Shown here piece by piece: positions 1 through 53,343 of a stretch of 64,000 bases of DNA (the first letter of the stretch is position 1; the number at the start of each line of letters is the position of its first letter). Both the position numbers and the translations under genes were made by a program. The DNA comes from a virus. Location of the stretch: positions 1-64,000 of the IMG/VR virus record IMGVR_UViG_3300009502_000042; one strand, 5' to 3'. The notes below the pieces were generated by a model. It ran no database searches and had not been told where the DNA came from. It saw only the letters and a list, made by a program, of their open reading frames with translations.

Positions 1-3000
1 GCTTTCTTTAGGGTGGTAAACTGCTCGTTGTCGATCTGCTCCTGTACCCAGTTCTTTCGATTGTTAAGATACTTAATACGTCTTTCGTTGTATTCCCGGG
101 CAGGAAGACCAAGGCGTTCAGCCTCTGCCATTCCCTGTTCTTTCATTCTTATAACATCCTCAGAGTCACCTTCTCTTACGACAAAAATACCGGACTTCCC
201 ACCTCCATTTTCAACCATGTCCCTGAAGTTCTCGAAAAGCCTTTTCTTTATCTGCAACTCCTTCTTTTCTTCGGGCGTGGGTTTATTTTTGTCCTGAAGT
301 CTCTTTATGTCATCACGAAGATCAATAATGTCCTGACTCTCCTGCTTTTGCTGTGCCGGGGTCTTTGGTCTGGTTATTCCGTTTTTAAGGTCCTCATACT
401 GCTGCATCAACCTGTCTTTCTTGCGAAGTTCGGCAGATTGTGCGGGAGTTGGCTTGTCTGCATTTTTCAGGTCCTTAATTTGATCCTTCAACTCCTTTAT
501 CTCGGGAGGATCGGCAGGGGGTTTAGGTTTCACCTTCCCGGTGTCGATACCATTTTGTGTGTCTTCAAGTTTAAGACGGAGTTCGGCCTCACGCTTATAG
601 TTCGCCATATCCGTGGCAAGTTCACTCCTTGTCTTTGGAGCATTCTCCTTTGAATATCCAGAAAGATGATCCATGATGTCTCTGGCGGTAAACTCGGGGA
701 ATACCTGCTGCACGTCACTCAGGGTTTTTTCTACAATCTCATCCAGCGACTTTGCGCCCATAACATGATGATCCTTAGCGATATCCTTGATGATCCTTGA
801 TATATCAGCACTGGACTCCGAGGAGGGTTTAGCCTCCTTGTCCGTAGGATACATGCCTTCCAGTTCCCTGTATTTGTCGACATCTTTTTTTCCTATAAGT
901 TTTGCTATATCCTTGTTTGATAATAATTCTGCCACATCAGCCTTCGACCCTCCCTTGGCATAATAAAGCGATCCGTATTTCTCAAACCCTGACGCTGTAT
1001 TTACCTCTTTTTCTATCCTGTTTTTTATCTTTGAGCCAAGGTCATCTTTTTCTGCTGCTGCACCTCCCCCTCTGGCGTTTCTTGTGGCATCCATGTCAAT
1101 CGGATGGCTTTTCGTGCTTTCCGCTCTTAGTTTTCCGTTCCATTTAGCTACAACCATGTCGTATCCAGCCTCTGCAATGAGGGGATTCATGTAGTCGATC
1201 TGCTTGTCTGGCGAGAACGACACGTCTGGACCATAATCCTTCCTAAATAAGGCAAGGGCTTGATCATAGAAATTTAATGGATCATCGTTAAACGGATAAA
1301 CCTTGTCTTTCGGAATCCTTACAGCGTGTAATCCTCCGGTAACGTTGTGTTCACGATCTCCCGGCTGAGTGTAATAATAACTAACCTTTTCGGAACGCTT
1401 ATCTGAGGTTATGCTATTCTCCCCCCAGTGTGATGGATCAACCATCCCGTTCTTGTACTTCTCCCAACCATGACCGTACCTGAAGAATATATAATTCCCA
1501 TTCCCATCGTCAACCATATTTTTAGAATACTCTTTCGGGACGATGTTTTTGACAGGACCTTCTTCTGAGGATGATGGTTTCATTCCGGCCAACATGATCT
1601 GGCGCAGTTTCTCCACATTCACTTTGATCCTGTTTTCTGGTTCCTTTGGCATATTTTTACTCCTGCCCCCGGTCCCCAGAACTTCCATGATCCTTATCTT
1701 CTCCTTATCTGCCTCATGCGCCTTTTCCAGTTCTTCGATCCTTATTTTGGCATCCCGCAGGTCCTGAAATTTTTGAGCAACATAAGCCTTTGCCTCTGGG
1801 GTCAATTCCTCAAGACTCTTGGTGGCCATGTATTCACGCTCCATCTGGCCGATATTCAACTCCGTGTTTACGTATGTCTGACGAAGACGGAAGATGTTGC
1901 TGGCCTCACGCCCGATCATCCAGCTTGCCATGTCATTATCTGACATTTTACGATAAACCTCAGACAGATCATTCTGAAGTTTCCTTCTTTGCTCTGGACT
2001 TTTCTCGGCCTTTAATTTATTCAGATACTCAATCTCGTCATTACGAAGGATGGCTCTGTGGATCAAAAGAACTGCCTCGTCAACCAGATTTCCGGTATGA
2101 TCTCTCAGAACCCTGTTTGTTACCCCGTACAGAATCTCTGGGTTTGCGTTTACCCCGGCTTTGGCAATGTCATATGCCTCGAAGACGTTCGTGCTGTGTA
2201 CGGCTCCTATGTGTCTCCTGAGAGCGTCCAGAGCCTGTAAGCCTTCCCTGCCCTCCAGTTCACTTTCTATTGTGGCATTATTTATGGCCGTAGTTTCATC
2301 CGCTGGCTTTTTCATCCTTGCTTTTTTACCGAAAATAGCCTCGTTTATCACGTCATTAGGGATCGACTCGTTGGTTTTAGCAACACTTTCCTTAAACGCA
2401 TTAACCAGCGCAGTGCCCTTTAATTCGGGATGAATGTCCCTGAACTTCCCAAACACATTAGTAATACCGTTGATCAATTTCTTGCGATCCTCGGAAGACA
2501 TCGGTTCTGACTCTGCTGAAAACAACCTTCCCTGCCCAGAACTCGTATCTTTCTCGGCCTGATCTCTTGTTTTTAACTGCTTGGTTGTCATCTCACTTTT
2601 CCATACTCCTGTATTGAGTTTGCCTTTGACGAGTGGACCCGCAACGTCTCCATAAGAAACCCCGGCAGCATTTTCCCTTCCTCCCGCTTTGATATACAGG
2701 TCTTTCTCAAAATACCACAATGCAGCCTGAACATCTGCCACAGAAAGATTATACCCTTTCTCAGCCAACTTACGTTGTGCCTCTTTAAAAGTTTCGTATT
2801 GCAATGTTCGATCTGGGGCATTATCTGGGGAATCTACTGTTCCATTCATTTTCTGGAATATCCCATTTGCCTTAGTATCAGCGTTCCCCTCTTGTATTAA
2901 TTGCTCTTTTGACTTTATCATATTCGGGACCACGCCCTTGTCACGTTGAGCCTTTTCCACGTCAAGATTTGCCAAAATCTTCTCGTACTCAATCTCCTGC

Positions 3001-6000
3001 TCTTTCTTTGTCCCCTTTTTTTGACCAACCAATATCTCGATATCGGTCCAGTATCCACCTCCTTTTTTAACCTTCGTTATGCCGTCTTTGGTCACAACGG
3101 TGTCTGGTCCTTTTCTTTTTATGTAAGCCCTCGTCCTTTTTGTTGCGTCAGCAATTGCATCGTCATCAGATATGTCTGGCTTGCCAATCAGCGTTTTATA
3201 CGCCCTAACACCGACATCTTCCGACTCAGGAGAGCCTTCCCTTCCTTTTAAAGTAGGGATGACTGATGACCTGTATCTATTGAATGATCTGGACTCCCAA
3301 CGGTCCATTGTCGGATACCCTTCGTCTCCCATAAGATTAGAGAAGTACACTCCTAACTTAGGTCCAAACACGGTAACAGCCCGTGGGAGTTTCATCTTAT
3401 CTTCCCACCCGCTATTGTATTTAATTCCAAGTTCTTTTGCCTCTTTACGAAACTTAGTTCCGGTCTTTTTTTCCATCAACCACTTGCTTAATTTTTTGAT
3501 GTCTCCATCAAATTCAGGACTCTCAAGTAGTTCGTTTATCCTATCTATATTAAGGTCGTAAGATTCTGTTTTTGTCCCACCTCCGGTAGCATAAGGTATT
3601 TTTTTAGAGCCATTGTTTTTGTAAGCCTCATATATTTCAACAGCAGCCTGAAGATTGTCATTAACCTCGGTTTGATCGCTGGTAATGGCCGTGAGCATTG
3701 TGAATAGGTCACGCTCCCCATGTTCGTTTGTTTTTAACTCTGGATACACAGTACTGAGTGTGTCGATAGCCTTTTCGTACTGCTTTGTATACCAGCCAAC
3801 TCCGCTACGGTCTGACATTCCGTATGTGTCTATCATGTGTTCAACCTCTAAGGCGATAAACTTAGATAGTCTGGGGATGATCTGGTGCCTAACACTCTTG
3901 TTGTGAGCAATTATACGGGCTAATTCGTCTCCTTTTTTATCCTTTTCCGACTTAAGCCTGTCGGTTACCCTCCATTTTTTACGCTCGTAATACTCATTTA
4001 TTTTCTCATATATTTTTCTGAGGTTATTTGTCTTATTTGGGTTTATTCCTATACTTCTGAAAGACTCTTCCCCGGTCATAAACTCATCCATGTGAGGCAT
4101 GACATTACCTCCTTGACTTGGGAAGAACGGAGACTCTCTTTCATATACAGAGGCGGTACTGGCCTTGATGATATCGGCAATTTCGTTATCTGTAAGAGCC
4201 ACGTCTTTCCCGATAAAGGATTTTATGGCATTGCGAACAAAATCGACAACCTGCTGCCATATTCCCTTCTCCATTTTATTGAGGTCCTCTTTGGTAATGA
4301 TCTTCTCGGCAATCTTGGCAAGATACTCCTCGGCCAAACCTTCTTTCCCGATCTTACCGCTGTTAAACGAATTAATATACGACCTGTCGATGGTTTGGGA
4401 TATCTTATCCATTCCCACGGAGTCATATATTTTCCCAAGCAGTTTATCTAATTCCTCTGGCTTTTCAATCAGCGATCTGAGGCCACGGTGAATCCCCTGC
4501 TCGTGAACCCATGTGGCCACGGCATCATTCTCATTCTTAAGATTGTCGGCAATGAAGTAAATCTTCCCGTTCCAAGGGTCATAAACACCCCTGATATTTA
4601 CCTTTGCCCCGGGAGATGCATTCCCTTCAATTCCAGCCCTTATGTCGGCAGGAAGGTCTTCCTGAGACTGTACCACAACCGCATCAAGTCCATTAACAGC
4701 CTTCTTTGCCAGCCCGTTAATAATAGACTGTACATTCTTCTGAGACTCTGGGGCGGGATTTTTCTTGGTGGCCTCCTGAAGGGCTTGAATTTCCTTCATT
4801 AAAGGAACTTCTGCCGGGATGACCTTTTCCTCAATAGGTACGTCCTTGTAATTAACCGGGGTTAAGCCATTCACACTCCGGTATTCCGCATCCCTTTCGG
4901 TGGCTCGTTGCCAAAGCGCACGTTGATCTTCCCCACCCTGTCCGTCTTCCACTTGAACGCCAAATTCTTTGAGTAACTGGGACCGTCTGTCTTCGGTGAC
5001 GTATCTGGAGTCGACTGGTCTGGCTGTTTGATCTTCGATGGTGATTCCATTTTCTTTTAAATTAGTTGCAAATTTATCTACCTGTGAATTAAATTCCTCA
5101 TTCTTATTATCGTAGAAATCAAGTATTTGAACTCTTCCCTTCTCGTCAAGAAGTGTGGCGTCAAGTCCAGCGTCTTTGAGTGCCTTAAGCACCCCTTCAA
5201 CATTGTCTACCTTGAATTCCAGTTCGATAATCCTGTCGGAAACCCCGTCCGAAGGGGCGTCAGGCTCAACGTATCTGGAGGCAATTGTTGCTTTCTGGGT
5301 TTCGTGAGACATCACGCCAAGGAGTGCGGCAAATTGTTCGGCCTCATCAAGGGTTTTCGCATTCACTTCCACCCTGTTTGACACCTCTGGGATGCCTTCA
5401 AAAATTCCAATAGTGTGGTCGATGTTCTTTATCTCAACCTTCATAATTCGGCCAAGTTCATGCATCCCCTTGATGTACGCCTTATACTCTGGTCTTTCCC
5501 TGACGGATGTGGCATCCTCTACGCTGGTTATCTTCAGGTCCCTGTAAGGTGCTACAAATATGGCTGAAATTGTGCCATCAGGATTGAGACTATTGATCAT
5601 ATCTGGCTTTGCCAGAGGCTCCGGTCCGTAAGGAACACGATCAAGGGCTTTTGATGCTATTTTTGTAAAGTCAAGTATTGCCTGTCTGTGTACGGAAGGA
5701 TTCTTCTGGTACGGCTTTTCAACGACATTTTGGTTGTTATTGCCTTCGATATTTGCTCCGATATTATCACTTAACTCTGTCCCGTCATAAAGGGCGAGGG
5801 AGTTCACATTGATATGTGAAATGATATCCAGATTCTTATTAAGATAATCGGCTGTTCTGGCGTAAGACTCGGGCGTTTCCGACCAGTCCGTTTCAGTGTC
5901 TCCGACCTTGTCTTTCCCCTCGAAACCAACAACGAGATTAGGAATGAAGTTTATTTTGTTCTCCCTGAGTTTTTCTGCCGCCAACTCCATCTGTTTTTCA

Positions 6001-9000
6001 AGGGCTGGCTTGTGTAATCTCCTTAAAATAGGATCGTTAAACGACTCAATTCCAAGTTCAACGTACTTAATGTGGGCGTCCTCCAGAAACTGATTGTCAA
6101 ACTTGAGCATCTGGCCAGCGGTTGTCTGGATTATAAAGCCTTCAAAATCAGGATTTACCTCCTTTATCCTCTTGTAAATCTCAGTGAGATAAGTGTGGTT
6201 CTTGGACTGACCGAAAGTTTTGTCATCCAAATATATCAGCCTTGCATCCAAGTCCTTGATGCTTTCAACCTGAGAGTCAATGATATCTTTGGGCGTTTCC
6301 GTTATAACCCGGGGAATTTCCGAGCAAAAGGCGCAGTGAAACAGGCACCCTTCGGACATACTGAGTCTGGGGATGACTCTCGTGCCCCTGAAATGACGAT
6401 AGGAATACCCATGAACATCTGGGTATCCATTTTGAACAGCAAACTCACTGACCGTCTTATACACGGTAACGTTTGGTTTTTCACTCAAGGATTTGAATTC
6501 GGTGTATCCCCCTACGGATATTTTCTGCCCGGGAATCTCCTCTGCTATCCTCGAAATATGTGGCTCATTTATCATAAGAGTACTGAATGCAACCCTGTCG
6601 TATCCAGCCTCTTTAATAAACTTAATAGCCTCATCCATATCCCTGACAACATAAACATCCGACTTGTCAACAATATGAGAGAGCCGGGACATCCATAGTG
6701 GAATTTCCCAGAAGTCGAACGTCCTGTCGAACCCGGGTCTGGTACGGTATAGTTTGTCATAATACAACTCTGTCGGGTCCCCGGTCAATCTTCCTCTGTT
6801 CAGGAGGTCCGAGTTTGAAAATTGAACAAGCAACACTCTGTCTGAATTATCTTTTCCCGGGTCCATCCTTACCCACAGGTTGTTCCCTTTGTTTTTTGGA
6901 CTGTTGCGAACAGCGTCATTTAGACTGAAACTTGGCGTGGTTGTCTCGCTTCCCTTTGCGTCCTTGGAAATTACGGGATCGGCTCCATTAATAGGCTCCT
7001 TATCAACCTTGCGGAACGCCTCGTACTCTCCGACCGCCTGATCAATGACTTCATTAAGGGATTTCCCGGCATTAGCAGGATCGGACATCATATTAAGAAC
7101 CTGCGCTGAAACAGCGGCTGTCTCGTGATCCAAAACCTCGACATTCAGCCTGTTTGTCCTGTACTTAACCTCGTCATTCAGGCTTTTATCGTTTATGTCG
7201 ACCGGATTAACTTCTGAAACTGGCCTGTCAAGAAGTGATTTTACGGGCTTTCCAGAACCTTCATCTCCAACCACAAGCACCTTGGATTTATCAACAATAT
7301 TCCCGTCCCCAAGATCAAATTTATCTCCCGATATCCCTTTTACAACAAAGGCTTTTCCATCGAGGAAGACAACGGAGCTTGGTTTAACTTCGCCAGTCTC
7401 CCCTGATACGAGTCGATTGCCTTCTTGCGTTGTTTCGCCTCCTCCAAGGATAGTGCCGGGGTTAACGGTTTGCCTTCGTCCGTCTGGACTAAGTACCCTG
7501 ATGGCGTTTTCACTATTGACGTTTTCATCTGTGTTTTTATTAATAATTTCGTTTGCAATTTTCTCTGCACCTACACGGGTTTCCGCACGGTGTATCCCAG
7601 TGGACTCTCCGAATTTATCGCCCGTAACATTAACCTCCCAATATGGACTTACCGGGACAAACTGACCGTCTTTCCCGAGCAGCCTCCCGATCCTTGACGG
7701 TTTTTGATATTGTGTTGTAACCTGCTCTATCTGAACATGATTATCGTCATCAAGTTTATATGAACCAAGGATTGGGTCCGATCCATCATCCGGTTTATCC
7801 CATTCAATCCTACTTCCGGTAGCAGGGATGATAGGAATTTCTGGTTTTATAACAGGCTCTGACTCGCCTTTCTTGGGAAGTAACCCTGTCTCGATTGGAG
7901 GAGGCTCGACAAGGTTTCTAACCCTCTGAACAGCATCATCGAGAGACAATGGATTCTCGTCTCTTAATTTTACAATATTACTTTCCTCCCGGCTTAAAGC
8001 CTCTCCATCCTCCATTTTCTTCTTAGCAGACTTGTAAAGTGCGTCTTGTCTTTTAGCCTCAATTTCCTTCTCCTTGGCAACCTCTGCATCAAATCGGTCA
8101 ACCTCCTTTTGCTCCAGTGGAGTGCGGTCCCACGGAGTTTCATATTTATCAAGCCCCATCTTTAAGGTAGCAACATCGGCCTCTCCAGCCTTAAGCCTCT
8201 GGGAGATATTCACCTTCTGCTGGACCGTCATACTGTTTGCGTCCGTCCTTTTCTGACGTTCCATGATGAGGGTAGTGAATCTCATGGCGTCCTTCTCGGC
8301 AGCGTCAGCATCTCCGTATTTACGGGCGAACACAGGCTCGTCAGCGGCATTATAGGCGATTAAAACCGACTTTCCTCCATCGCTTTTAGTATCAATCCTT
8401 GACACTACTGGAGTTCCGGTATCTGGCATAAGACCCTCAATAGCATACATCAACTTTGCCTTGGTCTCAATAGGGATACTTCCCGACCTTAAGAACCACT
8501 GTAACTGATTTGGATCGTTATTCAGGCTGTTTATGACCTCGTCAGAGGAGGGGAATGCATTCAGCTTATAATTTCCGTTTTTATCAGTCCTACCCTTCGG
8601 TCTCCCTTTGTAGTCGTACATCAGACTGATTTCGTCAGGAGTAAGTTCTACCCTGAATACGCCCTCATTCACCTTCCCCTTATCAAAGTTCTGAGCCTTG
8701 ACCCATTCCGTTCCAGATATCAGTATGTGAGGTATTTTAAGCCCTACAAGAGGGATGGCACTTAACACAAAGTCCTTGAATGTTAAGTCGCTTAACTGTT
8801 TCTTTGGGTCGAACATTGTTCCACCAACCGTAAACACCCCGACTTCAGTGGCAAATCCAGCGGCACTTACATTGGCCTTAAGAGTGGATATGGATTGTTT
8901 TGAAAGTCCGGTATCAGCCCCCCATTCACCGACTGACCCTTTCCCGATTTCAGTCCCGGCACCAATAGCACCGACCGCACCTCCAAGAAGAAAGTCCTCT

Positions 9001-10904
9001 CCTCCTCTTTTCAGCACCTGACTCCAATTAATGCTCTTAAGTGTGTTTTTGGGATCAGCTAACTGGGTAGCTGTTTCGCTCATCATCCCATAGGCACTAA
9101 GAGAACCAGCGGAAACGGCAGCGTTTTTAATCACGCTGGCGGTGGCTCCGTTTATCATCTCATCAGAAAGATACGCAACCGCTTTTCTGGCGGTCGACTC
9201 CCTCATCCCATTAGCAACAAACTGAGCAATAGTCTTTTCTGCCGCCTTTAAAGCATTCTTCTTGATCGCCCAGTCAACAGCCATTTCCGCAGGTTTTGCC
9301 CCTACTGAAAACGCCCCAAGTCCTTCCATACCGAACTCAGCAGCACCCTTCCCAACGGTTCCCCATCCAGCTACTGGCAACATCGGACCGGAGTCAATCA
9401 ACAGGCTCACAAATCCTGCCGCAACACTTTCAGTCGTGGAAGGCGTGTATCCCGCCCAAGGATCAAATGCTGGATCGGTCGATCCCGGTGGAAGGAAAGC
9501 CTGAACTCCCTTGCCGATCAATGAATTTCCAACTCCCTGTGCCACAATATAGTCCATTGAGGACCTCCTATTGTACCACTGATTTTGCTCTTCTTTTATG
9601 GCGTCACCAAGAACCGTTCTCTGGTCCGTAAGTTTGTCTACCTCATCATTCATAATCTTTGTATGCTCTGGGGTATTTGACCCCTGCTCTTCCCGGGAAA
9701 GGTTCTGCATGGCCTTTGTCTTTGCCCCCAAAGCCATATGTTCACGCTCCATCTGAGCCAGCTTATTCGGATCAGGAGGAAGGCTCATCAGTTTGTCGGC
9801 ATACAAAAGGGCGTCCTTCCAGTTTCCTGAATTTGCCGCCATCACAACCTTCTGCCCGTTAAGAGTAGGATCATCGGGATTTAGTGCAAGTGCCTTATCA
9901 AGAAACCCAGAAACTCCATATTTATCGTAAATTGACGGGTCTCTCGCCAGTATTCCCTTTACATCATCGGGTGTCGGAGAGCCATCAACGATACCAGACT
10001 GAACAATTACATTCCTTGCATCGTTTTCTGCGGCTTTCTTTGCCGCCCAGTATGGCAACTGATTGGCGTAGGGATCGGCAGGACGGGTTTTCTCCAAGTT
10101 AGAGAGCATTTGTACCACCGTGGTAAGATCACCCTTGTCAGCGGCATCTTTCATTGCAATTCTTGGCATAAGATAAGACTGATTGAGCCACATGTTTTCC
10201 CGTTCTATCTGAACGGGGTCTTTTGGCTTATCCAAACCGTCTTGGTATTCTTGTTCTGAGGTTATTGGAGCAATTTCTGCCTTGGCTCTTGCCTCGGTGA
10301 TCCCGATTTTATCAGGGTCTACCCCGACCGCTTGCTGATAATCGGATTTCCATTTTGTAGGATTATTCGGAGATTTCAGGTCTTGACCATCTGAACCAAA
10401 GTTTCCCCAGTTGAGTTCCCATTTTTTTGTACTTGGGTTTTTAGTTGCAACTGGAGTTATACCTGATTTCCACGCACCACGATAGTCGTAATCTGGATTG
10501 TCAGGAGAATCTTCTCCTCCCTTGGTCAATCTCTGGTCCTGTTTCCACGCCTGTACACGAGGGTTCTCATTCCAGAACTTCTGGAAACCCTCCTCGTCTT
10601 TGGGGGATAATTTTGTGGTATTGAATCCCGGTGTCGGTTGAGGTACTGGTTTTACCTCCTTGGGCACAACTGGTCCCGGTGCCGCCTTAGATGTACCATC
10701 TTCGGATGACGATGGCTGGATAGGGGATATAGGCGACCCGCCTCCTAAGTTTTTCCCGGCATCCATCGAAAAAGCATCGGACGGATTTACAGGCTCCTCT
10801 TTTTTTTTTAACCCAGAAAGGTCGATGGGAGGTAAAGAGGCTCCCTTGTTTGCACCAGTAAGTCCAGAAAGATCAATTGGCGGTAATTTTGTGTTTTCGT
10901 CCAT
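1..10904 (-). CDS. Giant polyvalent-type protein with radical-SAM and zincin-like domains (C-terminus outside window)
   Basis: One frame is open without a stop from the ATG at 10904 to the window edge, giving at least 3634 aa. The start overlaps the stop of the upstream gene (TAATG). By my own translation: a low-complexity Pro/Gly N-terminus; a Gly/Ala-rich, partly hydrophobic stretch near residues 490-690; a B12-binding-like fold near 1375-1480; radical-SAM cysteines C1520, C1524 and C1527 (CLFHCAFC), then LIYLDDKTF at 1556-1564 and GIES at 1618-1621; HEQGIH at 2134-2139 followed by RGLRSL; a YYTQPGD...VYPFNDDP block near 3125-3265; a Lys/Glu-rich coiled-coil-like end after 3440. The layout fits the large polyvalent proteins of phages, which are thought to be injected with DNA and act early in the host. 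The frame and motifs are seen directly; the substrate of the radical-SAM domain is unknown. It lies last in the virion operon after two cargo-like genes. Confidence 0.85.
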   Translation of the reverse strand, partial: MDENTKLPPIDLSGLTGANKGASLPPIDLSGLKKKEEPVNPSDAFSMDAGKNLGGGSPISPIQPSSSEDGTSKAAPGPVVPKEVKPVPQPTPGFNTTKLSPKDEEGFQKFWNENPRVQAWKQDQRLTKGGEDSPDNPDYDYRGAWKSGITPVATKNPSTKKWELNWGNFGSDGQDLKSPNNPTKWKSDYQQAVGVDPDKIGITEARAKAEIAPITSEQEYQDGLDKPKDPVQIERENMWLNQSYLMPRIAMKDAADKGDLTTVVQMLSNLEKTRPADPYANQLPYWAAKKAAENDARNVIVQSGIVDGSPTPDDVKGILARDPSIYDKYGVSGFLDKALALNPDDPTLNGQKVVMAANSGNWKDALLYADKLMSLPPDPNKLAQMEREHMALGAKTKAMQNLSREEQGSNTPEHTKIMNDEVDKLTDQRTVLGDAIKEEQNQWYNRRSSMDYIVAQGVGNSLIGKGVQAFLPPGSTDPAFDPWAGYTPSTTESVAAGFVSLLIDSGPMLPVAGWGTVGKGAAEFGMEGLGAFSVGAKPAEMAVDWAIKKNALKAAEKTIAQFVANGMRESTARKAVAYLSDEMINGATASVIKNAAVSAGSLSAYGMMSETATQLADPKNTLKSINWSQVLKRGGEDFLLGGAVGAIGAGTEIGKGSVGEWGADTGLSKQSISTLKANVSAAGFATEVGVFTVGGTMFDPKKQLSDLTFKDFVLSAIPLVGLKIPHILISGTEWVKAQNFDKGKVNEGVFRVELTPDEISLMYDYKGRPKGRTDKNGNYKLNAFPSSDEVINSLNNDPNQLQWFLRSGSIPIETKAKLMYAIEGLMPDTGTPVVSRIDTKSDGGKSVLIAYNAADEPVFARKYGDADAAEKDAMRFTTLIMERQKRTDANSMTVQQKVNISQRLKAGEADVATLKMGLDKYETPWDRTPLEQKEVDRFDAEVAKEKEIEAKRQDALYKSAKKKMEDGEALSREESNIVKLRDENPLSLDDAVQRVRNLVEPPPIETGLLPKKGESEPVIKPEIPIIPATGSRIEWDKPDDGSDPILGSYKLDDDNHVQIEQVTTQYQKPSRIGRLLGKDGQFVPVSPYWEVNVTGDKFGESTGIHRAETRVGAEKIANEIINKNTDENVNSENAIRVLSPDGRRQTVNPGTILGGGETTQEGNRLVSGETGEVKPSSVVFLDGKAFVVKGISGDKFDLGDGNIVDKSKVLVVGDEGSGKPVKSLLDRPVSEVNPVDINDKSLNDEVKYRTNRLNVEVLDHETAAVSAQVLNMMSDPANAGKSLNEVIDQAVGEYEAFRKVDKEPINGADPVISKDAKGSETTTPSFSLNDAVRNSPKNKGNNLWVRMDPGKDNSDRVLLVQFSNSDLLNRGRLTGDPTELYYDKLYRTRPGFDRTFDFWEIPLWMSRLSHIVDKSDVYVVRDMDEAIKFIKEAGYDRVAFSTLMINEPHISRIAEEIPGQKISVGGYTEFKSLSEKPNVTVYKTVSEFAVQNGYPDVHGYSYRHFRGTRVIPRLSMSEGCLFHCAFCSEIPRVITETPKDIIDSQVESIKDLDARLIYLDDKTFGQSKNHTYLTEIYKRIKEVNPDFEGFIIQTTAGQMLKFDNQFLEDAHIKYVELGIESFNDPILRRLHKPALEKQMELAAEKLRENKINFIPNLVVGFEGKDKVGDTETDWSETPESYARTADYLNKNLDIISHINVNSLALYDGTELSDNIGANIEGNNNQNVVEKPYQKNPSVHRQAILDFTKIASKALDRVPYGPEPLAKPDMINSLNPDGTISAIFVAPYRDLKITSVEDATSVRERPEYKAYIKGMHELGRIMKVEIKNIDHTIGIFEGIPEVSNRVEVNAKTLDEAEQFAALLGVMSHETQKATIASRYVEPDAPSDGVSDRIIELEFKVDNVEGVLKALKDAGLDATLLDEKGRVQILDFYDNKNEEFNSQVDKFATNLKENGITIEDQTARPVDSRYVTEDRRSQLLKEFGVQVEDGQGGEDQRALWQRATERDAEYRSVNGLTPVNYKDVPIEEKVIPAEVPLMKEIQALQEATKKNPAPESQKNVQSIINGLAKKAVNGLDAVVVQSQEDLPADIRAGIEGNASPGAKVNIRGVYDPWNGKIYFIADNLKNENDAVATWVHEQGIHRGLRSLIEKPEELDKLLGKIYDSVGMDKISQTIDRSYINSFNSGKIGKEGLAEEYLAKIAEKIITKEDLNKMEKGIWQQVVDFVRNAIKSFIGKDVALTDNEIADIIKASTASVYERESPFFPSQGGNVMPHMDEFMTGEESFRSIGINPNKTNNLRKIYEKINEYYERKKWRVTDRLKSEKDKKGDELARIIAHNKSVRHQIIPRLSKFIALEVEHMIDTYGMSDRSGVGWYTKQYEKAIDTLSTVYPELKTNEHGERDLFTMLTAITSDQTEVNDNLQAAVEIYEAYKNNGSKKIPYATGGGTKTESYDLNIDRINELLESPEFDGDIKKLSKWLMEKKTGTKFRKEAKELGIKYNSGWEDKMKLPRAVTVFGPKLGVYFSNLMGDEGYPTMDRWESRSFNRYRSSVIPTLKGREGSPESEDVGVRAYKTLIGKPDISDDDAIADATKRTRAYIKRKGPDTVVTKDGITKVKKGGGYWTDIEILVGQKKGTKKEQEIEYEKILANLDVEKAQRDKGVVPNMIKSKEQLIQEGNADTKANGIFQKMNGTVDSPDNAPDRTLQYETFKEAQRKLAEKGYNLSVADVQAALWYFEKDLYIKAGGRENAAGVSYGDVAGPLVKGKLNTGVWKSEMTTKQLKTRDQAEKDTSSGQGRLFSAESEPMSSEDRKKLINGITNVFGKFRDIHPELKGTALVNAFKESVAKTNESIPNDVINEAIFGKKARMKKPADETTAINNATIESELEGREGLQALDALRRHIGAVHSTNVFEAYDIAKAGVNANPEILYGVTNRVLRDHTGNLVDEAVLLIHRAILRNDEIEYLNKLKAEKSPEQRRKLQNDLSEVYRKMSDNDMASWMIGREASNIFRLRQTYVNTELNIGQMEREYMATKSLEELTPEAKAYVAQKFQDLRDAKIRIEELEKAHEADKEKIRIMEVLGTGGRSKNMPKEPENRIKVNVEKLRQIMLAGMKPSSSEEGPVKNIVPKEYSKNMVDDGNGNYIFFRYGHGWEKYKNGMVDPSHWGENSITSDKRSEKVSYYYTQPGDREHNVTGGLHAVRIPKDKVYPFNDDPLNFYDQALALFRKDYGPDVSFSPDKQIDYMNPLIAEAGYDMVVAKWNGKLRAESTKSHPIDMDATRNARGGGAAAEKDDLGSKIKNRIEKEVNTASGFEKYGSLYYAKGGSKADVAELLSNKDIAKLIGKKDVDKYRELEGMYPTDKEAKPSSESSADISRIIKDIAKDHHVMGAKSLDEIVEKTLSDVQQVFPEFTARDIMDHLSGYSKENAPKTRSELATDMANYKREAELRLKLEDTQNGIDTGKVKPKPPADPPEIKELKDQIKDLKNADKPTPAQSAELRKKDRLMQQYEDLKNGITRPKTPAQQKQESQDIIDLRDDIKRLQDKNKPTPEEKKELQIKKRLFENFRDMVENGGGKSGIFVVREGDSEDVIRMKEQGMAEAERLGLPAREYNERRIKYLNNRKNWVQEQIDNEQFTTLKK

Positions 10905-12160
10905 TACTTCAGGTCTATATTGTGTTGATCCTTGTACAGTTTAATCAAGTCAGCGTCAGAAACTCCCGGGTTCTGCGTTCTTGCGGCCTTTAATGACCCA
11001 ACGGTTGGTTCAGAAACCTTCTTTGCCTTTCCCGGGTCCTTCGGGTAATACGCTTGGAGAGAATTATAGTCATCGGTCGACAGGGTTGTTTCGTCAATCT
11101 TAACAGGCTGTTCCTCCTCTTTTGTCTCAACTTTTATGCCCGGGTATTTTTTGGGGTTATCCGCAATATACTGTTGAGTTGCGTCTTTAGGGACCTTGAC
11201 CATCCTTGTTCCATACCATATGCGTTTACCAGTTGATTTATCCTCGACAAATTTAAGCAATTGTGTGTCAGATATTGTACCATCAGCATAGGTTAATGGC
11301 CTTTTTATAAGAACCTGCGGGGTGTAGGTAGTCGTACCATCACTGTTATCAAACTGAGTCCATCCGGTGGATGGTTGAACTTTCCCAAATCCAGCCTTCT
11401 GCTTGATCAACTGCATCCCCATTGTCTCGGTCTGCTGTTTTCTGGTTATATATGTCGATCTGTCAACTCCCCTTTCCTTCCAGTAATTCTGAAGGTCCTT
11501 GTCACTGTCCCATAAATTACCTGCATCCCTCTGAACGTCCCCTTCGTCATAAACACCGTAAGTGTAATCGTATCCACTTCCGTCAGGACGTGGAGTCATT
11601 TTCCCGGTCTTCTGAGCGGCATATTGATTGTCACGGAACCACTCCTTCTCAATTTTCATCGCCTTTTCAGGTGTGTACTGGGTGTCAATAAGGGTCATTG
11701 GGTCAGCGGCCTTTGCAATAGGTGTCTTAGTCGTAACCCAGTCATTCAATGCTGCCTCCGAGGAAGGTGCTAACTCCCCTTTTTTCTTCAATTCAGCAGC
11801 ATACAACATGGCTTGTTTATACCTGTTTACCAGCAACTGACTATCGGTAACCTTGGTGAGAATGGATTTCTTATCCTGCTCAATAGCCGTAAGGTCTTTG
11901 TAGTTTGGGACTGCATTATTTTGCTCGGCCTTCACAAAAACGTCTGCCGCCTTCTGCTTGAAAGTATCGAGGTCTCCAAGTATCTCGTCCCGGTGATTGG
12001 CCTGAGTACCTTCCAGAGAAACGTCCACAAGTTTCATGTACTGGTCAATAATCCCCTGCTGTTGAGCCATCTTTCTTTGACTTATAGCAGAAAGAGACTG
12101 CCCGAGATTCTGAATGGCGGGAGTTATTGTGTCTTGAGGTAAAAACGAGATAGGAGGCAT
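10904..12160 (-). CDS. Probable internal virion (cargo) protein
   Basis: 418 aa, rich in Gln, Lys and Asp, with long helical stretches in residues 1-130 and no membrane segment. It starts MPPISFLPQDT and has no catalytic motif that I recognise. It lies between the hydrophobic 318-aa gene and the giant polyvalent gene, overlapping the latter by one base, so the two are probably translated together. In crAss-like phages the genes after the muzzle encode proteins packed in the capsid or tail; the cargo role is inferred from that position and from composition only. Confidence 0.6.
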   Translation of the reverse strand: MPPISFLPQDTITPAIQNLGQSLSAISQRKMAQQQGIIDQYMKLVDVSLEGTQANHRDEILGDLDTFKQKAADVFVKAEQNNAVPNYKDLTAIEQDKKSILTKVTDSQLLVNRYKQAMLYAAELKKKGELAPSSEAALNDWVTTKTPIAKAADPMTLIDTQYTPEKAMKIEKEWFRDNQYAAQKTGKMTPRPDGSGYDYTYGVYDEGDVQRDAGNLWDSDKDLQNYWKERGVDRSTYITRKQQTETMGMQLIKQKAGFGKVQPSTGWTQFDNSDGTTTYTPQVLIKRPLTYADGTISDTQLLKFVEDKSTGKRIWYGTRMVKVPKDATQQYIADNPKKYPGIKVETKEEEQPVKIDETTLSTDDYNSLQAYYPKDPGKAKKVSEPTVGSLKAARTQNPGVSDADLIKLYKDQHNIDLK

Positions 12161-12171
12161 GTCTTATTTTT

Positions 12172-13128
12172 TTAATAGCTGAATCCAAGTTTCTTGAACA
12201 TGATATTTATGGGGTCAGCAGGATTAGACTTCATGTAATCGAACCAGTCCCCATTTGGGTTAACACTCTTATCGACAGGAGTATTTGGATTTAAGACCGA
12301 ACCCCAAGGAGTGGTAAGTCCTTCTTTAAAAGCTGGTTCTTCTGTAAATGGAGGTGTCGAATACGGTGTCCCGGCTTTTACCGGAGGGATGATCCCGTTT
12401 ATAACCCCATCAAGGCCATAGGACTTTTCCCCGGGGCTTGAAAACATCTGGGGAATCTTCTCGTATCCCGGGGATGAGGATGGGGAATCTTCAAATGTGG
12501 GCACTGCTGGTTTGCTCGGGGTTAACGAGTCAACACTTCCCCCCTGCTGAAAGAACGTGGCTTGTTTCTTCAAAAAGTCTTCTTGGGAATTCAGGCTGCT
12601 AATCATTCCGTAGGTGCTTATTCCAGCCCCTATTCCGGTGTTTATGCTTTGGAGTAAGTCCTTGGTCCCCTGTGCGCTTTGCTCGATAGATGCTAATTTA
12701 ATTTGGTTGTTTTGACCCTGAATAGACACGTCAAGGCCAGCGTTATGTGTGAGTACATTCTCGTAGTTATTTATATTTCCCAGTCTTGCCTTGGTGTCTT
12801 CTATGGCCAATTGATTGTACGCCTCGTCCGTTGCCGACATCGCCCTTGACGCCATGTCTATCATTGATGACGGACTCTGGAGAACATCCTTCATCTGAGA
12901 TATTGTTTGTGACATCATCTGATCGACATTGTCCTTATATCTCTCATATCCCGGCATCCCCATATAAGACATTTCTCTTGCCATCCCCTCCGCTTCTATG
13001 GCCTGTTCAGGCATCGTAGTATTTAGGTCTCCGATCTTACTGGCTGTTTTATCAGACGCAACCTTGCTGAAAACTCCGCTCGCCAAGTTGATCGCCATAG
13101 GGATTAATGATGCTAATAGTCCTATCAT
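12172..13128 (-). CDS. Probable ejection/cargo protein with hydrophobic N-terminus
   Basis: 318 aa. The first 20 residues (MIGLLASLIPMAINLASGVF) form a hydrophobic, possibly membrane-inserting helix. Met- and Gln-rich helices follow to about residue 190, then a Pro/Ser/Gly-rich tail. Podovirus internal virion proteins have this type of layout. It follows the muzzle gene with one base between them and is followed by the 418-aa cargo candidate. No enzyme motif is visible. An ejection role is inferred from position and composition. Confidence 0.55.
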   Translation of the reverse strand: MIGLLASLIPMAINLASGVFSKVASDKTASKIGDLNTTMPEQAIEAEGMAREMSYMGMPGYERYKDNVDQMMSQTISQMKDVLQSPSSMIDMASRAMSATDEAYNQLAIEDTKARLGNINNYENVLTHNAGLDVSIQGQNNQIKLASIEQSAQGTKDLLQSINTGIGAGISTYGMISSLNSQEDFLKKQATFFQQGGSVDSLTPSKPAVPTFEDSPSSSPGYEKIPQMFSSPGEKSYGLDGVINGIIPPVKAGTPYSTPPFTEEPAFKEGLTTPWGSVLNPNTPVDKSVNPNGDWFDYMKSNPADPINIMFKKLGFSY

Positions 13129-13129
13129 T

Positions 13130-16100
13130 TTATTCAGATATTGTACCGTTAATATTTACTCCCATTATAGGTTTTCCATCATCGCTTATAAGCCTTACTC
13201 GTATAGTATGTCCTCTGAGTTTTCTCCCATTAAACAAATCAGACAACGACTCCTTTCCATGAGTATACATATCTCTCAAAAATGACACAACACCAACGCC
13301 TTCTCTGCGTTTAAATGCCGAACTTTTCAACCTGCTTCGCATGTGACTTCCATCCGTAATCACGTACACATCCCCGGTTTCGGGAGACTCCCAGTTTCCA
13401 TACGAAAACACTTCCATAGAATCCCACGACTTAATCTTGTCTGGATTCACGTTAGCAACAACAATAACCTCGCTTTTGTATTGAACTCCATAAAAAATAT
13501 TTGGAGCGTTGTCCATATCTGTAACGCCTATATTGTGACGATACAGCCTACCTCCCTTTGAACTCATAAACACAAGATTACAAGTCCCATATCCATCAGG
13601 AATGAAGGACAAACAAGTTGTCCAAGAATTGGTTGGCTCATGGAACATCAGGGTGGCATTATTAATAGGGTTAATATGGTCAACAAATGTAACAATTAAA
13701 TTCCCATATTCGCTCTCGAATGCTGAATATACATTCACATTGGCAACTCCAGATTTTATTAGGGACCTGCTTTTGTTTCTGAAATACGTTGACATTCCAT
13801 AGTCCCACCCAGACTCACTGTCCTTTCCAACGATCTGACGAACTCCGTTTGTGGACCATCTGCACCATATCCCGCTATACATATCCCAGAAATACGTGTA
13901 ACTTCCAGAGTCCGTTACACTTTCTGGGTTTATGGTCCCAAAGTCTTCTGGATGAATCAACTGTCCCCCAACAACTTTATCTGATAATGCAACAACCTGC
14001 TGACCTCCAATGGTTCCTTGTTTCATTGACACGGCACTCACATATAGGGAGATGGGCTTATTTTGCAACAATGTTCTTAACACTTCTCCGACCTCAATCA
14101 TTTTTGCTATTCTGCCAAATTTATGTGGTAGAATATTAGAGTCACCTGACGAGAAACTATTAAGTTGATTAACTTGAGTGTCCTGAATATACAAACCGGA
14201 ATACCTGTATGCAGTGGGGAAATTCTGGCGTTTCATGTTTCTGTTTTCCACATTTACATTCCCAAGACAAGGCAATTCGCTTTCGTAAAAGTCGGAATAG
14301 TTTGTAGATTCTATTGGGAATGGAACTGGGTTCTGTATGACCCCGGTAAGCCTGTTTCTTACCCACACATCCCCGCCCGAAACGGTAAGTATAGCATCGT
14401 TTAACGACACTCCGTTTACCGTTGTCTGATCGACATCATCCTGCGAAGAATTTGTTGATTGGTGCGCCCTGTAATCGGTATGTGGCTGTGAAATTGGAAT
14501 CCTCGGACCAATGGCATAAAATAAATTATCTTCATTCTCCTTTTTTGGACGGAATATTTCAACAAAAATCTGCTCCTCTGGGCCTATCTTCGCAAGGTCT
14601 TTAAATCCATCTATACTGCCATACTTAAATGCTGGTATGGTAATTTGAAGGGAAAATATATTTTCTACCTTATTTCCCTCTGCCGTCCATATAGTTTCCC
14701 CCTTCTGATTTTCCTCGTATATAGGGATGACCTGCCTCCCCTGCCTTGGGACTTCCTTGTATTCGGCATTAATAATGTCGAAAGAGAGGGTGTCTGGAAA
14801 ATTCTTATAGTAATATAATCCTTGTGTATTTGCCAATTGACTTGTTCTATAATACGCAAATCTTATTTTATCCCCACGCTCCCAGACATATGGTTTTACA
14901 ATACTTTTTTTAAACACCTCATTCATATCCAGAATGTCTGGATTCACCGTAATGTCAAGCGTGTTCATAGTTATTATACCAACAGCGGCAGGAGTTTCTC
15001 TTATGGAATATACCCTAAAATAATCGAAATACGACATGGATAACCTTTTTGAGATAACCACCTGATATGTATCTGCCTCCATCGGGGGAACATGCCCTAT
15101 GGCCATGCGTAACGACACTGCGTCTATTGCCCGATCCCCGGCATCTCCCGGGGGTATGTACAGTCTTGAGTTTTCCGAAAGAACAACCGCTCCCTTTCTG
15201 GAAGGTCCATCATAATATTCAACTCCTGCTTGATACCACGACCTATGCTTTAAAGACGCTTTTCTGGTCGTTCCGACACTTACAGACTCTGTTATTTTAG
15301 GACCATATAGCCCCGGCCAAGGAGTGGCATAATCATTTACGGCAATGGCTATACGATCCCCCGACAGAATCCCTTGTCCCAAAGGGTTCCCGGTAGTCCC
15401 ATTCATATCCCTTGTTGTGTAGTCATTTAACATGGGCATATTATATTTTGAAAATACCGGATACGTCCTGTATTGTAATCGTATCCCATCCACCCAATGG
15501 CTTATAATGTTTGCCGTATAGTCCCCCGGGGAAGACATGTATATCGCTGATATGGTATCTGGGATTATATTCTCGTCAAATGCTGAGAAATACCATAGGC
15601 CACGATCCCTTTGCATCAGGTCCGTTAACCTTACGACTATGCACAAAAACTCTCTGGATAAACTTTCGTCTGGATTATTTATAATTATATCTGCCAGATA
15701 AAAATCATGCGCCTCTTGATAGTCTGCAAATGACAACGCACGAGAAACTGTTGTTAGGGATATTTTTGGATTAACCCTATCAAACCCCTCCCAGTAATCA
15801 TAATAAAGAATCCTATTCTTTTCAATAAGTTCCTGTCCCCTTGCGATCTGCGGTACGTAATCGAACGGGCGAATTGCGTCCTCCTTTGCCAGATTCTGGG
15901 TGACATAATTATTGAAAAACTCGAACACGTACGGGATATCGTTTTCGATCAAAACATTGCCATTCTGGTCGTATTTTTCAATCCTGTAAAACCTCTTCCA
16001 TTCCTGAGTTTCGTTTGTCCTGAAGAACAATTCTATCGCAACTACCTCAATTGACCCAGTATCCAGCGTTATGCGAATCCCGTTTTCCTTACCATCAATG

Positions 16101-17149
16101 TAACTCCCGTCAAACATTTCACTTGTACCCCCTTCAGAAACCCCACTAAAAGCAGACAGCACGGTTGTTTCACGATCATCGTAAATGTATCTATAACAAA
16201 ACTGATAAACATGGTCCCTTAGATTACCCGTCTCTTTGGGCGATCCAGAACCCCAGTATCCGTATGACGGAGGGTATGCCGGGGGGTATTTTATAGCGTC
16301 TAAAACCTGATAATCTATACCGAAATACATTCCGGTCTGAAATATCAAGGAGTACCCGTATTTTGCAAGAGATGTGATGTCGGGACCTTCTCTCCACGGC
16401 CTGTCGGTCACAATGTATTCAAGAGAACCAACGGAGCCTTGGTCCAGTATTTTACCTATACCCGATGTGCGCTTATGCCTGTACCCATATTCACCTCCAT
16501 CCAAAGTCCAAGCAACCATGTATCTTCCGACACTAAAAAGAGACGGGAAGACTCCTATATATGCCGTTTTGCCGTAATGATCATTCTGTCCGGTTACCGA
16601 CTTAGCCTCTCTGCAATAATTATATTCCCATTGCCTGTTTGGATTCCCCATAGCCATGCTAAAAAACTCCCGAGAGAACTTTATGGCCTTGTCTATATTT
16701 ATCTTTCTGGGGGGAGTAAAGTCGTTATCTTTGAACGAAACAAAACCGCCATCCGTCCAATAAAGTAGTCCATCAACCACATCGACATCTGTAATTTTTC
16801 GATCAAGCCTAAAGTTAAGATATCGGTGCTGTAACACACGCTCCAACTTGTTTGCCGCTGGAGTGTATCGAAGTATTTTGTCAAAAGATTTATTGGCATT
16901 GTAAACAAAAAAGAATACAGTGCTTGTTGAAATGTCTTCATGCGATCCATTGTCAACATCTCCGAGGTTGTAAAACGGATTAGGAATCTCTCTCGTGCTT
17001 CCGATAGGCTCAGAGTCTTCAGAATTACTCCCCTCTGTCGTTCCACTGCGAAGATTCAGCTTGTATCGACATTCATTTGACTTCAGGGCACGTTCATCAA
17101 CGTCCTGATTCATTTTATGTGGAATAATTACCTGATTTACCTTAGTCAT
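13130..17149 (-). CDS. Tail nozzle/muzzle protein (T7 gp12-like, crAss muzzle-like)
   Basis: 1339 aa from ATG 17149, chosen because the ATG follows the TGA of the preceding gene directly; a longer frame to 17191 overlaps that gene. Near residues 80-130 it reads NKLERVLQHRYLN then LLYWTDG, followed by PRKINIDKA: the beta-propeller start typical of gp12-like tail tubular proteins of podoviruses. The length is close to that of crAss-like muzzle proteins. It probably forms the distal tail tube that gates DNA exit. No signal peptide or coiled coil is evident. The lysis-type membrane genes lie just upstream and the cargo genes downstream. Confidence 0.75.
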   Translation of the reverse strand: MTKVNQVIIPHKMNQDVDERALKSNECRYKLNLRSGTTEGSNSEDSEPIGSTREIPNPFYNLGDVDNGSHEDISTSTVFFFVYNANKSFDKILRYTPAANKLERVLQHRYLNFRLDRKITDVDVVDGLLYWTDGGFVSFKDNDFTPPRKINIDKAIKFSREFFSMAMGNPNRQWEYNYCREAKSVTGQNDHYGKTAYIGVFPSLFSVGRYMVAWTLDGGEYGYRHKRTSGIGKILDQGSVGSLEYIVTDRPWREGPDITSLAKYGYSLIFQTGMYFGIDYQVLDAIKYPPAYPPSYGYWGSGSPKETGNLRDHVYQFCYRYIYDDRETTVLSAFSGVSEGGTSEMFDGSYIDGKENGIRITLDTGSIEVVAIELFFRTNETQEWKRFYRIEKYDQNGNVLIENDIPYVFEFFNNYVTQNLAKEDAIRPFDYVPQIARGQELIEKNRILYYDYWEGFDRVNPKISLTTVSRALSFADYQEAHDFYLADIIINNPDESLSREFLCIVVRLTDLMQRDRGLWYFSAFDENIIPDTISAIYMSSPGDYTANIISHWVDGIRLQYRTYPVFSKYNMPMLNDYTTRDMNGTTGNPLGQGILSGDRIAIAVNDYATPWPGLYGPKITESVSVGTTRKASLKHRSWYQAGVEYYDGPSRKGAVVLSENSRLYIPPGDAGDRAIDAVSLRMAIGHVPPMEADTYQVVISKRLSMSYFDYFRVYSIRETPAAVGIITMNTLDITVNPDILDMNEVFKKSIVKPYVWERGDKIRFAYYRTSQLANTQGLYYYKNFPDTLSFDIINAEYKEVPRQGRQVIPIYEENQKGETIWTAEGNKVENIFSLQITIPAFKYGSIDGFKDLAKIGPEEQIFVEIFRPKKENEDNLFYAIGPRIPISQPHTDYRAHQSTNSSQDDVDQTTVNGVSLNDAILTVSGGDVWVRNRLTGVIQNPVPFPIESTNYSDFYESELPCLGNVNVENRNMKRQNFPTAYRYSGLYIQDTQVNQLNSFSSGDSNILPHKFGRIAKMIEVGEVLRTLLQNKPISLYVSAVSMKQGTIGGQQVVALSDKVVGGQLIHPEDFGTINPESVTDSGSYTYFWDMYSGIWCRWSTNGVRQIVGKDSESGWDYGMSTYFRNKSRSLIKSGVANVNVYSAFESEYGNLIVTFVDHINPINNATLMFHEPTNSWTTCLSFIPDGYGTCNLVFMSSKGGRLYRHNIGVTDMDNAPNIFYGVQYKSEVIVVANVNPDKIKSWDSMEVFSYGNWESPETGDVYVITDGSHMRSRLKSSAFKRREGVGVVSFLRDMYTHGKESLSDLFNGRKLRGHTIRVRLISDDGKPIMGVNINGTISE

Positions 17150-17150
17150 T

Positions 17151-17741
17151 TCAATGTAAAGTTGCGTAAATAACACCTGCCACACCCACAATCACCCCGG
17201 CAATACCGAGTCGCTTAAATCGTTTAACCTTCTTGGCGTCCTTCTCCGACTGCCCTTGCTGGCTTTTATTTAACAATATTGACCGATCAAACTGCCTCTG
17301 AAGAGCCATGTTCACCGTGTCTTTAAATATGCATTTCCGTTTCAGGTCATCAATAACGGAATCTTTAATACATAATTGAACCTGAAGAATAGGCATCTTC
17401 TCCAGACACTCCTCTCCGTTAAGAAACTGAATCTCCTTAACCACCGTGTCCCTCCCGGGAGGAACCTGTTGGCGAAGACGGTTGTATTTTTCCGTGATCA
17501 ACCGTATCGTTTTCTCCTTTTCAGCGACCCTGTCCTCCCTGTCCTTTACCACCCTGTCAATACTGTCCGACTTTGCCTTGTTTTCTTCGATCAGGAATGC
17601 GTTCACCTTTACAAGAGAGTCTATTGTCACCTTGGCAACAGGAGTCGTCTCAGGGGTCCTTTTACACATCTGTGTCAAAAGAATCCCGATGACAATAAAA
17701 AGACAGGCGGCTAAAATATATCCCCACGGTAGCTTTTTCAT
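17151..17741 (-). CDS. Membrane-anchored coiled-coil protein, possible spanin
   Basis: 196 aa. One N-terminal membrane helix (residues 6-24, ILAACLFIVIGILL), then a long charged coiled coil (about 40-160), then a second short hydrophobic helix at the C-terminus (GIAGVIVGVAGVIYA). One N-terminal anchor plus a periplasm-spanning coiled coil is the plan of inner-membrane spanins; the second C-terminal helix is odd for an i-spanin and would suit a one-piece spanning protein. The neighbour is a two-helix holin-like gene. The lysis role is inferred. Confidence 0.5.
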   Translation of the reverse strand: MKKLPWGYILAACLFIVIGILLTQMCKRTPETTPVAKVTIDSLVKVNAFLIEENKAKSDSIDRVVKDREDRVAEKEKTIRLITEKYNRLRQQVPPGRDTVVKEIQFLNGEECLEKMPILQVQLCIKDSVIDDLKRKCIFKDTVNMALQRQFDRSILLNKSQQGQSEKDAKKVKRFKRLGIAGVIVGVAGVIYATLH

Positions 17742-40916: not shown

Positions 40917-41054
40917 ATGAAAGTGAATATAACAGCCACGGTAGACCCAAAACTTCGTGACAGGGTAAAGAAACAGGCAGACAAAGAAAGGCGATCTTTC
41001 TCAAGTATGCTGGAGGTTATCATGGATTCATTCTTTAAAAAACAGAAAGCATGA
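40917..41054 (+). CDS. Ribbon-helix-helix (CopG/Arc-like) regulator
   Basis: 45 aa: a beta-strand (KVNITATVD), then KLRDRVKKQADKERRSFSSM and LEVIMDSFF, the strand-helix-helix plan of small DNA-binding dimers. The ATG at 40917 is 19 bases after the -7 element; the upstream frame contains the promoter. Directly downstream of a divergent promoter pair, it is the natural candidate to control both directions. It overlaps the next gene as ATGA. Confidence 0.75.
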   Translation: MKVNITATVDPKLRDRVKKQADKERRSFSSMLEVIMDSFFKKQKA

Positions 41055-53031: not shown

Positions 53032-53343
53032 ATGAAGAAAGCGATTCAATACAACTGGTTTGTCGGGATGACAACCAAAGAAGGCGATGCAATAGCTAAA
53101 GATGCCGCCAAGGTAACAATTGCGAAGATGCTTGCAGAATACGAAATACACGCATTCTCAGTGTCAGAACAGATCGGATACTGGAAACAAGTTCAGGAAG
53201 TATCACTGGTTGTTTCCTTTATCAACATGGATAAGGCCATCACTGGCCTGACCGCCAAGGAAATAGCAGAAAGGTTTCGGGACACCTTCAATCAGGAATG
53301 TGTACTGGTATCAACAGTTGAAACATGGTATCAATTCATTTAA
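53032..53343 (+). CDS. First small gene of the array
   Basis: 103 aa, mixed alpha/beta (DAAKVTIAKMLAEYEIHAFS, LTAKEIAERFRDTFNQECVL). No ribosome site; the leader AACCCTTAAAACCCACACAC is A/C-rich. Unknown function. Confidence 0.6.
   Translation: MKKAIQYNWFVGMTTKEGDAIAKDAAKVTIAKMLAEYEIHAFSVSEQIGYWKQVQEVSLVVSFINMDKAITGLTAKEIAERFRDTFNQECVLVSTVETWYQFI

Follow-up and report, generated by a model that had tools for sequence, protein, structure and literature searches.

A predicted radical-SAM enzyme module within a giant polyvalent-type phage protein, and its free and fused viral relatives

Large polyvalent proteins of phages and conjugative elements were defined by Iyer et al. 2017, in an article whose full text contains no word starting with 'radical' (PMC5512222). 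Radical S-adenosylmethionine (radical-SAM) proteins are already annotated in phages, among them gp36 of Streptomyces phage SF3 and uncultured Caudovirales entries in BFVD, some with B12-like domains; these belong to families different from the one described here (12-25% identity), and none was seen inside a polyvalent protein. Among characterised enzymes, AprD4 is a stand-alone radical-SAM 1,2-diol dehydratase of antibiotic biosynthesis that acts on paromamine; it is not known to be a cobalamin enzyme. Here we analysed a radical-SAM module encoded within a giant open reading frame (ORF) at one end of the viral record IMGVR_UViG_3300009502_000042 of IMG/VR. The stretch studied, positions 1 to 64,000 of that record, is called the window below.

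Proteins carrying this module ('radical-SAM giants') have multidomain size and the ART-PolyVal, LPD23, LPD38 and GNAT domains in common with the polyvalent proteins of Iyer et al., relative to which the radical-SAM domain is a new component (PMC5512222). With AprD4 the module shares a Rossmann-like N-terminal domain followed by a barrel; AprD4 is its top match in the PDB by sequence profile and matches the whole module in fold, at 17% identity. CysS, TsrM, TokK, OxsB, MgmA and PhpK likewise have the same domain order and fold, but unlike the cobalamin-dependent radical-SAM enzymes the module carries no B12-binding sequence signature. The features concerned are the following (window coordinates).
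3..10904, minus strand: giant protein of polyvalent type, of which 3634 of about 4224 aa lie in the window
5535..6872, minus strand: radical-SAM module, residues 1345-1790, 446 aa, exactly three cysteines
6390..6836, minus strand: N-terminal Rossmann-like domain, residues 1357-1505, with LLVQF, DFWEIPLWM, FSTLMINE and SVGGY, no cysteine
5655..6389, minus strand: radical-SAM barrel, residues 1506-1750
6324..6347, minus strand: CxxxCxxC [4Fe-4S]/SAM motif CLFHCAFC, with C1520, C1524 and C1527
6207..6239, minus strand: family signature LIYLDDKTFGQ, residues 1556-1566

A Pfam scan of the giant protein, which covered the 3634 residues in the window, returned Radical_SAM as the sole family reaching its cut-off (PF04055, residues 1515-1661, E 8.9e-8; score 32.9 bits, cut-off 29.5). 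All three cysteines of the module are ligands of the CxxxCxxC cluster motif, and further motifs are found at residues 1615-1622 (VELGIESF) and 1655-1663 (PNLVVGFEG). The first-pass annotation, made from the letters and a list of their open reading frames, had recognised a radical-SAM barrel by CLFHCAFC, LIYLDDKTF and VELGIESF; these lie at the positions and residue numbers it gave, and the barrel it proposed is borne out by the profile search with the cluster motif intact. Its extent for the domain (5300-6900, residues 1375-1750) had to be revised to 5535-6872 and residues 1345-1790, approximately, and the protein, rightly described as longer than 3600 aa, reaches about 4,224 aa because the ORF crosses the record end.

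AlphaFold produced a confident model of the module only when 22 homologues were supplied (pLDDT 87.2 and pTM 0.85, compared with pLDDT 42 for the single sequence), in which an N-terminal domain of alternating alpha and beta elements precedes the barrel. The top PDB match to this model in Foldseek was AprD4 (6fd2, E 1.6e-14, TM 0.60), followed by CysS, TsrM, TokK, MgmA, MiaB, RimO and OxsB; the giant did not match NF033070, the AprD4 equivalog model of NCBIfam. Pfam, model and fold matches agree in placing CxxxCxxC where a partial TIM barrel begins, as the radical-SAM superfamily demands. It is nearly certain that the module is a genuine radical-SAM domain under selection, and its activity as a SAM-cleaving enzyme is predicted with high confidence.

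With the window sequence as the only query, no relatives were recovered from viral, phage or genome collections. A plasmid-borne radical-SAM protein of Mesorhizobium matched both the N-terminal domain and the barrel; an alignment of the two sequences retrieved 26 viral loci, and a 22-sequence alignment 69. After removal of duplicates 62 distinct viral rows from uncultured phages were retained, including the window. Of these, 42 are located inside ORFs longer than 600 aa (713-4989 aa) and 20 are stand-alone genes, typically of about 385 aa (one of 562 aa, the others of 369-439 aa). CxxxCxxC is kept in all 62, DKTFGQ, QTT, ExGxE, KP and NxxxG are nearly all invariant, and omega values of 0.036-0.158 for close pairs reveal strong purifying selection.

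An assembly artefact joining a bacterial gene into the frame was rejected, as GC content is flat along the ORF and more than 40 contigs carry the same fusion. In blastp comparisons the giant shared only the radical-SAM module with the other giants compared (38-47% identity), and since it has nothing else in common with them, the module is, judged by these alignments, mobile between mostly unrelated giant proteins. On the tree the fused state requires three changes, so that transitions of the module between the free and the fused form are probable; the data are compatible with one fused clade as well (AU p 0.31). By its terminase the phage itself is a distant relative of phages of Flavobacterium and Cellulophaga (26-30% identity). 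A radical-SAM match was absent from all 47 records with a related terminase, hence that group of phages is not characterised by the module, and tblastn of 50,697 phage records with three single family queries yielded no relative. To call the domain a new phage capability, as was done at first, is too broad in view of the unrelated radical-SAM proteins of phages mentioned above. What is new is this radical-SAM family and its location within polyvalent proteins, the components each being already known; in the literature searched, neither the family nor its mobility between giant and single-gene forms nor its link to an Ogg-like domain, described below, was found.

The carrier had also been likened to injected polyvalent proteins; that it is of the polyvalent kind is borne out by its homologues. 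When 12 homologous giants were scanned against Pfam, Radical_SAM was detected in every one (best E 4.7e-18), together with ART-PolyVal in six, DUF7178 in four, LPD38 in three, LPD23 and GNAT in two each, and RadC and His_Phos in one each. In the 3634 residues scanned, the giant of the window contains no recognised polyvalent Pfam domain (LPD, ART-PolyVal or MPTase-PolyVal), and its C-terminal 630 aa, encoded at the other record end, neither matched the PDB nor aligned with the LPD38 end of another giant (L167). A separate stretch around HEQGIH (residues 2134-2139, window 4488-4505, minus strand) resembles proteins of other phages annotated as DarB-like or DNA methylase; it differs from the standard HExxH and may be a divergent zincin-like part.

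Two further protein families of the window bear on the possible role of the module.
2679..3809, minus strand: DUF7178-like domain, residues 2366-2742, downstream of the radical-SAM module on the same polypeptide (leave-one-out profile E 1.3e-14)
53032..53343, plus strand: small SAM-lyase-like protein of 103 aa (family A), a relative of genes adjoining stand-alone radical-SAM genes

DUF7178, a Pfam family, came to attention as a recurrent neighbour of the stand-alone radical-SAM copies, which has to be considered when the strength of the linkage is judged: in seven of the 20 stand-alone records it scored over the cut-off, each time no more than about 3.4 kb from the radical-SAM gene on a contig of 45-102 kb. 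The domain is present in roughly half of the giants as well. The giant of the window is a very long multidomain protein that combines radical-SAM and DUF7178/Ogg-like parts in one ORF. Compared with the PDB, the DUF7178 profile matched archaeal Ogg-type N-glycosylase/DNA lyases (MjaOgg, E 3e-4) with the IDRH segment aligned, and the profile relation spans the hairpin and the catalytic Asp region expected of Ogg-type helix-hairpin-helix (HhH) proteins. By sequence profile DUF7178 therefore resembles a distant relative of the Ogg-type HhH DNA glycosylases, with a putative glycosylase/lyase activity. Many phages carry the family, as exemplified by L186:11754-12377 and L174:1466-2113.

In five stand-alone records a family A protein (about 95 aa) is encoded no further than 2 kb downstream of the radical-SAM gene; the family also occurs elsewhere in the genome in the phage studied here and in about nine other radical-SAM records. 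This amounts to about 15 of 60 radical-SAM records versus none of 32 controls (Fisher p about 0.002 on near-equal counts), a figure in which six of the approximately 15 positive records supplied the seeds and the control records were mostly shorter contigs. The family is too weakly conserved for a profile scan of viral sequences. Its invariant residues are G, E and Q in the order found in SAM lyases, and phage SAM lyases have three strictly conserved SAM-binding residues, Gly, Glu and Gln (PMC7877911). The protein at 53032-53343 matched PHROG 16022 (E 2e-7) and PHROG 2226 (E 0.0018); in the PDB the best match of the family was Svi3-3, a weak one (E 0.19), and the comparison with the T3 enzyme was weak too. 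Except for DUF7178 and family A, Pfam counts around the stand-alone copies disclosed no recurrent family. A D12 adenine-DNA methyltransferase gene is located directly upstream of the radical-SAM gene in two records (L116, L117), and RecA, DNA polymerase A, 5'-3' exonuclease and RNA ligase are encoded near some stand-alone copies. On a 291 kb phage contig a full-length Hsp70 (L180:6812-8791, PF00012, E 1e-244) lies three genes before the stand-alone radical-SAM gene.

The gene of the giant closes a block comprising terminase, portal, tail fibres and virion proteins, and the genes in front of it are listed here.
10904..12160, minus strand: gene directly upstream of the giant, 418 aa, in position and size class as before other radical-SAM giants
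12172..13128, minus strand: second gene upstream, 318 aa, likewise in position and size class as before other radical-SAM giants
13130..17191, minus strand: virion structural protein (PHROG 14478)

The PHROG 14478 protein indicates that the giant gene ends the virion-structure block. Other radical-SAM giants are also preceded by same-strand genes, many of them similar in size, with tail and head proteins among them. Despite similar sizes and order, the 418-aa and 318-aa genes showed no detectable homology to the genes upstream of other giants. The ejection proteins of T7 and P22 are encoded at an equivalent position, which supports packaging and injection of the giant protein without proving it; by this analogy we consider both moderately probable.

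The record comprises 73,632 bases, and its positions 1-123 are identical to 73510-73632, an exact repeat of 123 bases. The giant ORF extends past base 1, so that the protein is interrupted by the record end, and an in-frame minus-strand ORF at the other end (73631-71739) begins with the last 40 aa of the giant. Terminal repeat and in-frame overlap together indicate a circular or circularly permuted map and a protein of about 4,224 aa. The record probably contains the complete phage genome, circular or circularly permuted, even though the contig splits the giant gene in two.

Taken together, we propose that the module would act early in infection, as a radical-SAM enzyme with its catalytic apparatus intact. 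The three cysteines would hold a [4Fe-4S] cluster for reductive cleavage of SAM, and the resulting 5'-deoxyadenosyl radical would modify a macromolecule at the start of infection. In the fused form, present in this phage and at least 41 other viral contigs, the large polyvalent protein would most likely be produced late, alongside the virion proteins, and be packaged and injected together with the DNA; some 20 further phages have the module as a separate gene which, where the context is informative, is located among early DNA-metabolism genes. Possible targets would be the DNA of the phage as it enters, which would thereby resist host restriction, or the host DNA. Because the module is tied to the DNA-glycosylase-like DUF7178 by fusion and gene order, a nucleic acid is slightly more likely as target than a protein. 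The full explanation, nucleic-acid target included, is offered tentatively, and its rivals overlap, the use of cobalamin being compatible with any target. The more specific picture, in which a virion-packaged radical-SAM enzyme enters with the genome and, with the glycosylase-like domain, remodels the bases of DNA within minutes of the onset of infection, is unlikely as it stands.

Several observations weigh against this proposal. Phages that lack the module commonly have DUF7178 as an early gene (60 INPHARED records), and the linkage may merely reflect shared timing or a polyvalent habit. The case for packaging draws on gene position and on the literature about polyvalent proteins, and survival of an oxygen-sensitive cluster in the virion is a difficulty, which assembly of the cluster after entry could overcome. 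That a SAM-lyase-like gene should accompany a SAM-consuming enzyme is not explained. Finally, the nearest cellular homologues are found in clusters that look like those of peptide modification.

The last point leads to the possibility, somewhat less probable than the nucleic-acid proposal, that the substrate of the module is a protein or peptide (host RNA polymerase, a ribosomal or defence protein, or part of the giant itself), which it would modify in the manner of the radical-SAM enzymes for ribosomally synthesised and post-translationally modified peptides (RiPPs). Full-length cellular homologues are rare (four of 295 genomes of one order). Bacterial proteins from Mesorhizobium (WP_258580589.1), Streptomyces (L089, L090) and L199-L201 are homologous to the viral module across both domains and share WE-PLW, DKTFGQ, QT and ExGxE with it. 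An arginase-family gene directly adjoins the homologue in six of six cases examined, and LanB-type dehydratase genes are present in two; this is reminiscent of RiPP clusters in which one peptide is the substrate of both a peptide arginase and a radical-SAM enzyme (PMC12257519). It is chiefly these neighbours that speak for a peptide or protein as substrate. ART-PolyVal on the same polypeptide in six of the 12 giants adds an analogy with polyvalent ADP-ribosyltransferases that modify host proteins. On the other hand, the bacterial copies are only about 25% identical to the viral ones and sit on a long branch, no arginase or LanB relatives were found near viral copies, no obvious precursor peptide came to notice, and cysteines for a SPASM/twitch auxiliary cluster are absent (none in residues 1528-1790). 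The SPASM type was rejected, as there are no extra cysteines past the barrel. In its own right, the bacterial radical-SAM/arginase pair (L085:4866-7279, L089, L090, L199-L201), twice with the LanB-type dehydratase, is probably an uncharacterised RiPP-type cluster.

It appears doubtful that the module is a cobalamin-dependent radical-SAM methyltransferase, whichever of these targets it acts on. The B12-binding-like N-terminal domain claimed in the first-pass annotation stands as far as the fold is concerned: model and Foldseek place a Rossmann-like domain ahead of the barrel, as in the cobalamin-dependent enzymes, and CysS, TsrM, TokK, MgmA and OxsB resemble the module over its whole length. 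The best NCBIfam matches are B12-type subfamilies as well (PhpK, BchE), yet they are weak and miss their cut-offs by hundreds of bits, and PF02310, the B12-binding family of Pfam, was matched neither by the giant nor by the 12 homologous giants. Furthermore, the top fold match AprD4 is a dehydratase, the N-terminal domain is short, and GGY and the segments following it lack the usual GEGE-type element. Judged by these sequence features, the module seems on balance more likely to work without cobalamin.

Modification of tRNA or rRNA, as by MiaB/RimO-type enzymes, is improbable: both enzymes match the model over its whole length in Foldseek, and RimO also by sequence profile, but tRNA-related neighbours are not recurrent, and the N-terminal cysteine triad of methylthiotransferases, required for their second cluster, is absent (no cysteine in residues 1345-1515). 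The methylthiotransferase type was rejected on that ground. A decayed or non-catalytic passenger, for which the variable surrounding sequence and the unassigned function might speak, is scarcely credible with the cluster motif kept in every viral copy and with the omega values given above.

Some other proteins of the window deserve mention. A 396-aa protein (41051-42241, plus strand) has a GroES-like domain only at residues 290-363, the preceding approximately 290 residues being without match. Two large proteins on the minus strand (21242-23398 and 33732-37154) both match PHROG 23837, 6002 and 4636 (tail spike, virion structural) and are possibly duplicated or alternative receptor-binding proteins.

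Altogether, a radical-SAM enzyme joins the known arsenal of polyvalent phage proteins, as a member of a family with at least 62 viral representatives that isolate collections have missed. A DNA-glycosylase-like domain is linked with the family, as is, less firmly, a SAM-lyase-like protein. For DUF7178, which is frequent among the early genes of cyanophages, roseophages and mycobacteriophages, the Ogg-type glycosylases provide a function-bearing relative. The testable claim that follows is that phages may deliver or make radical-SAM chemistry, modifying DNA or proteins at the start of infection.

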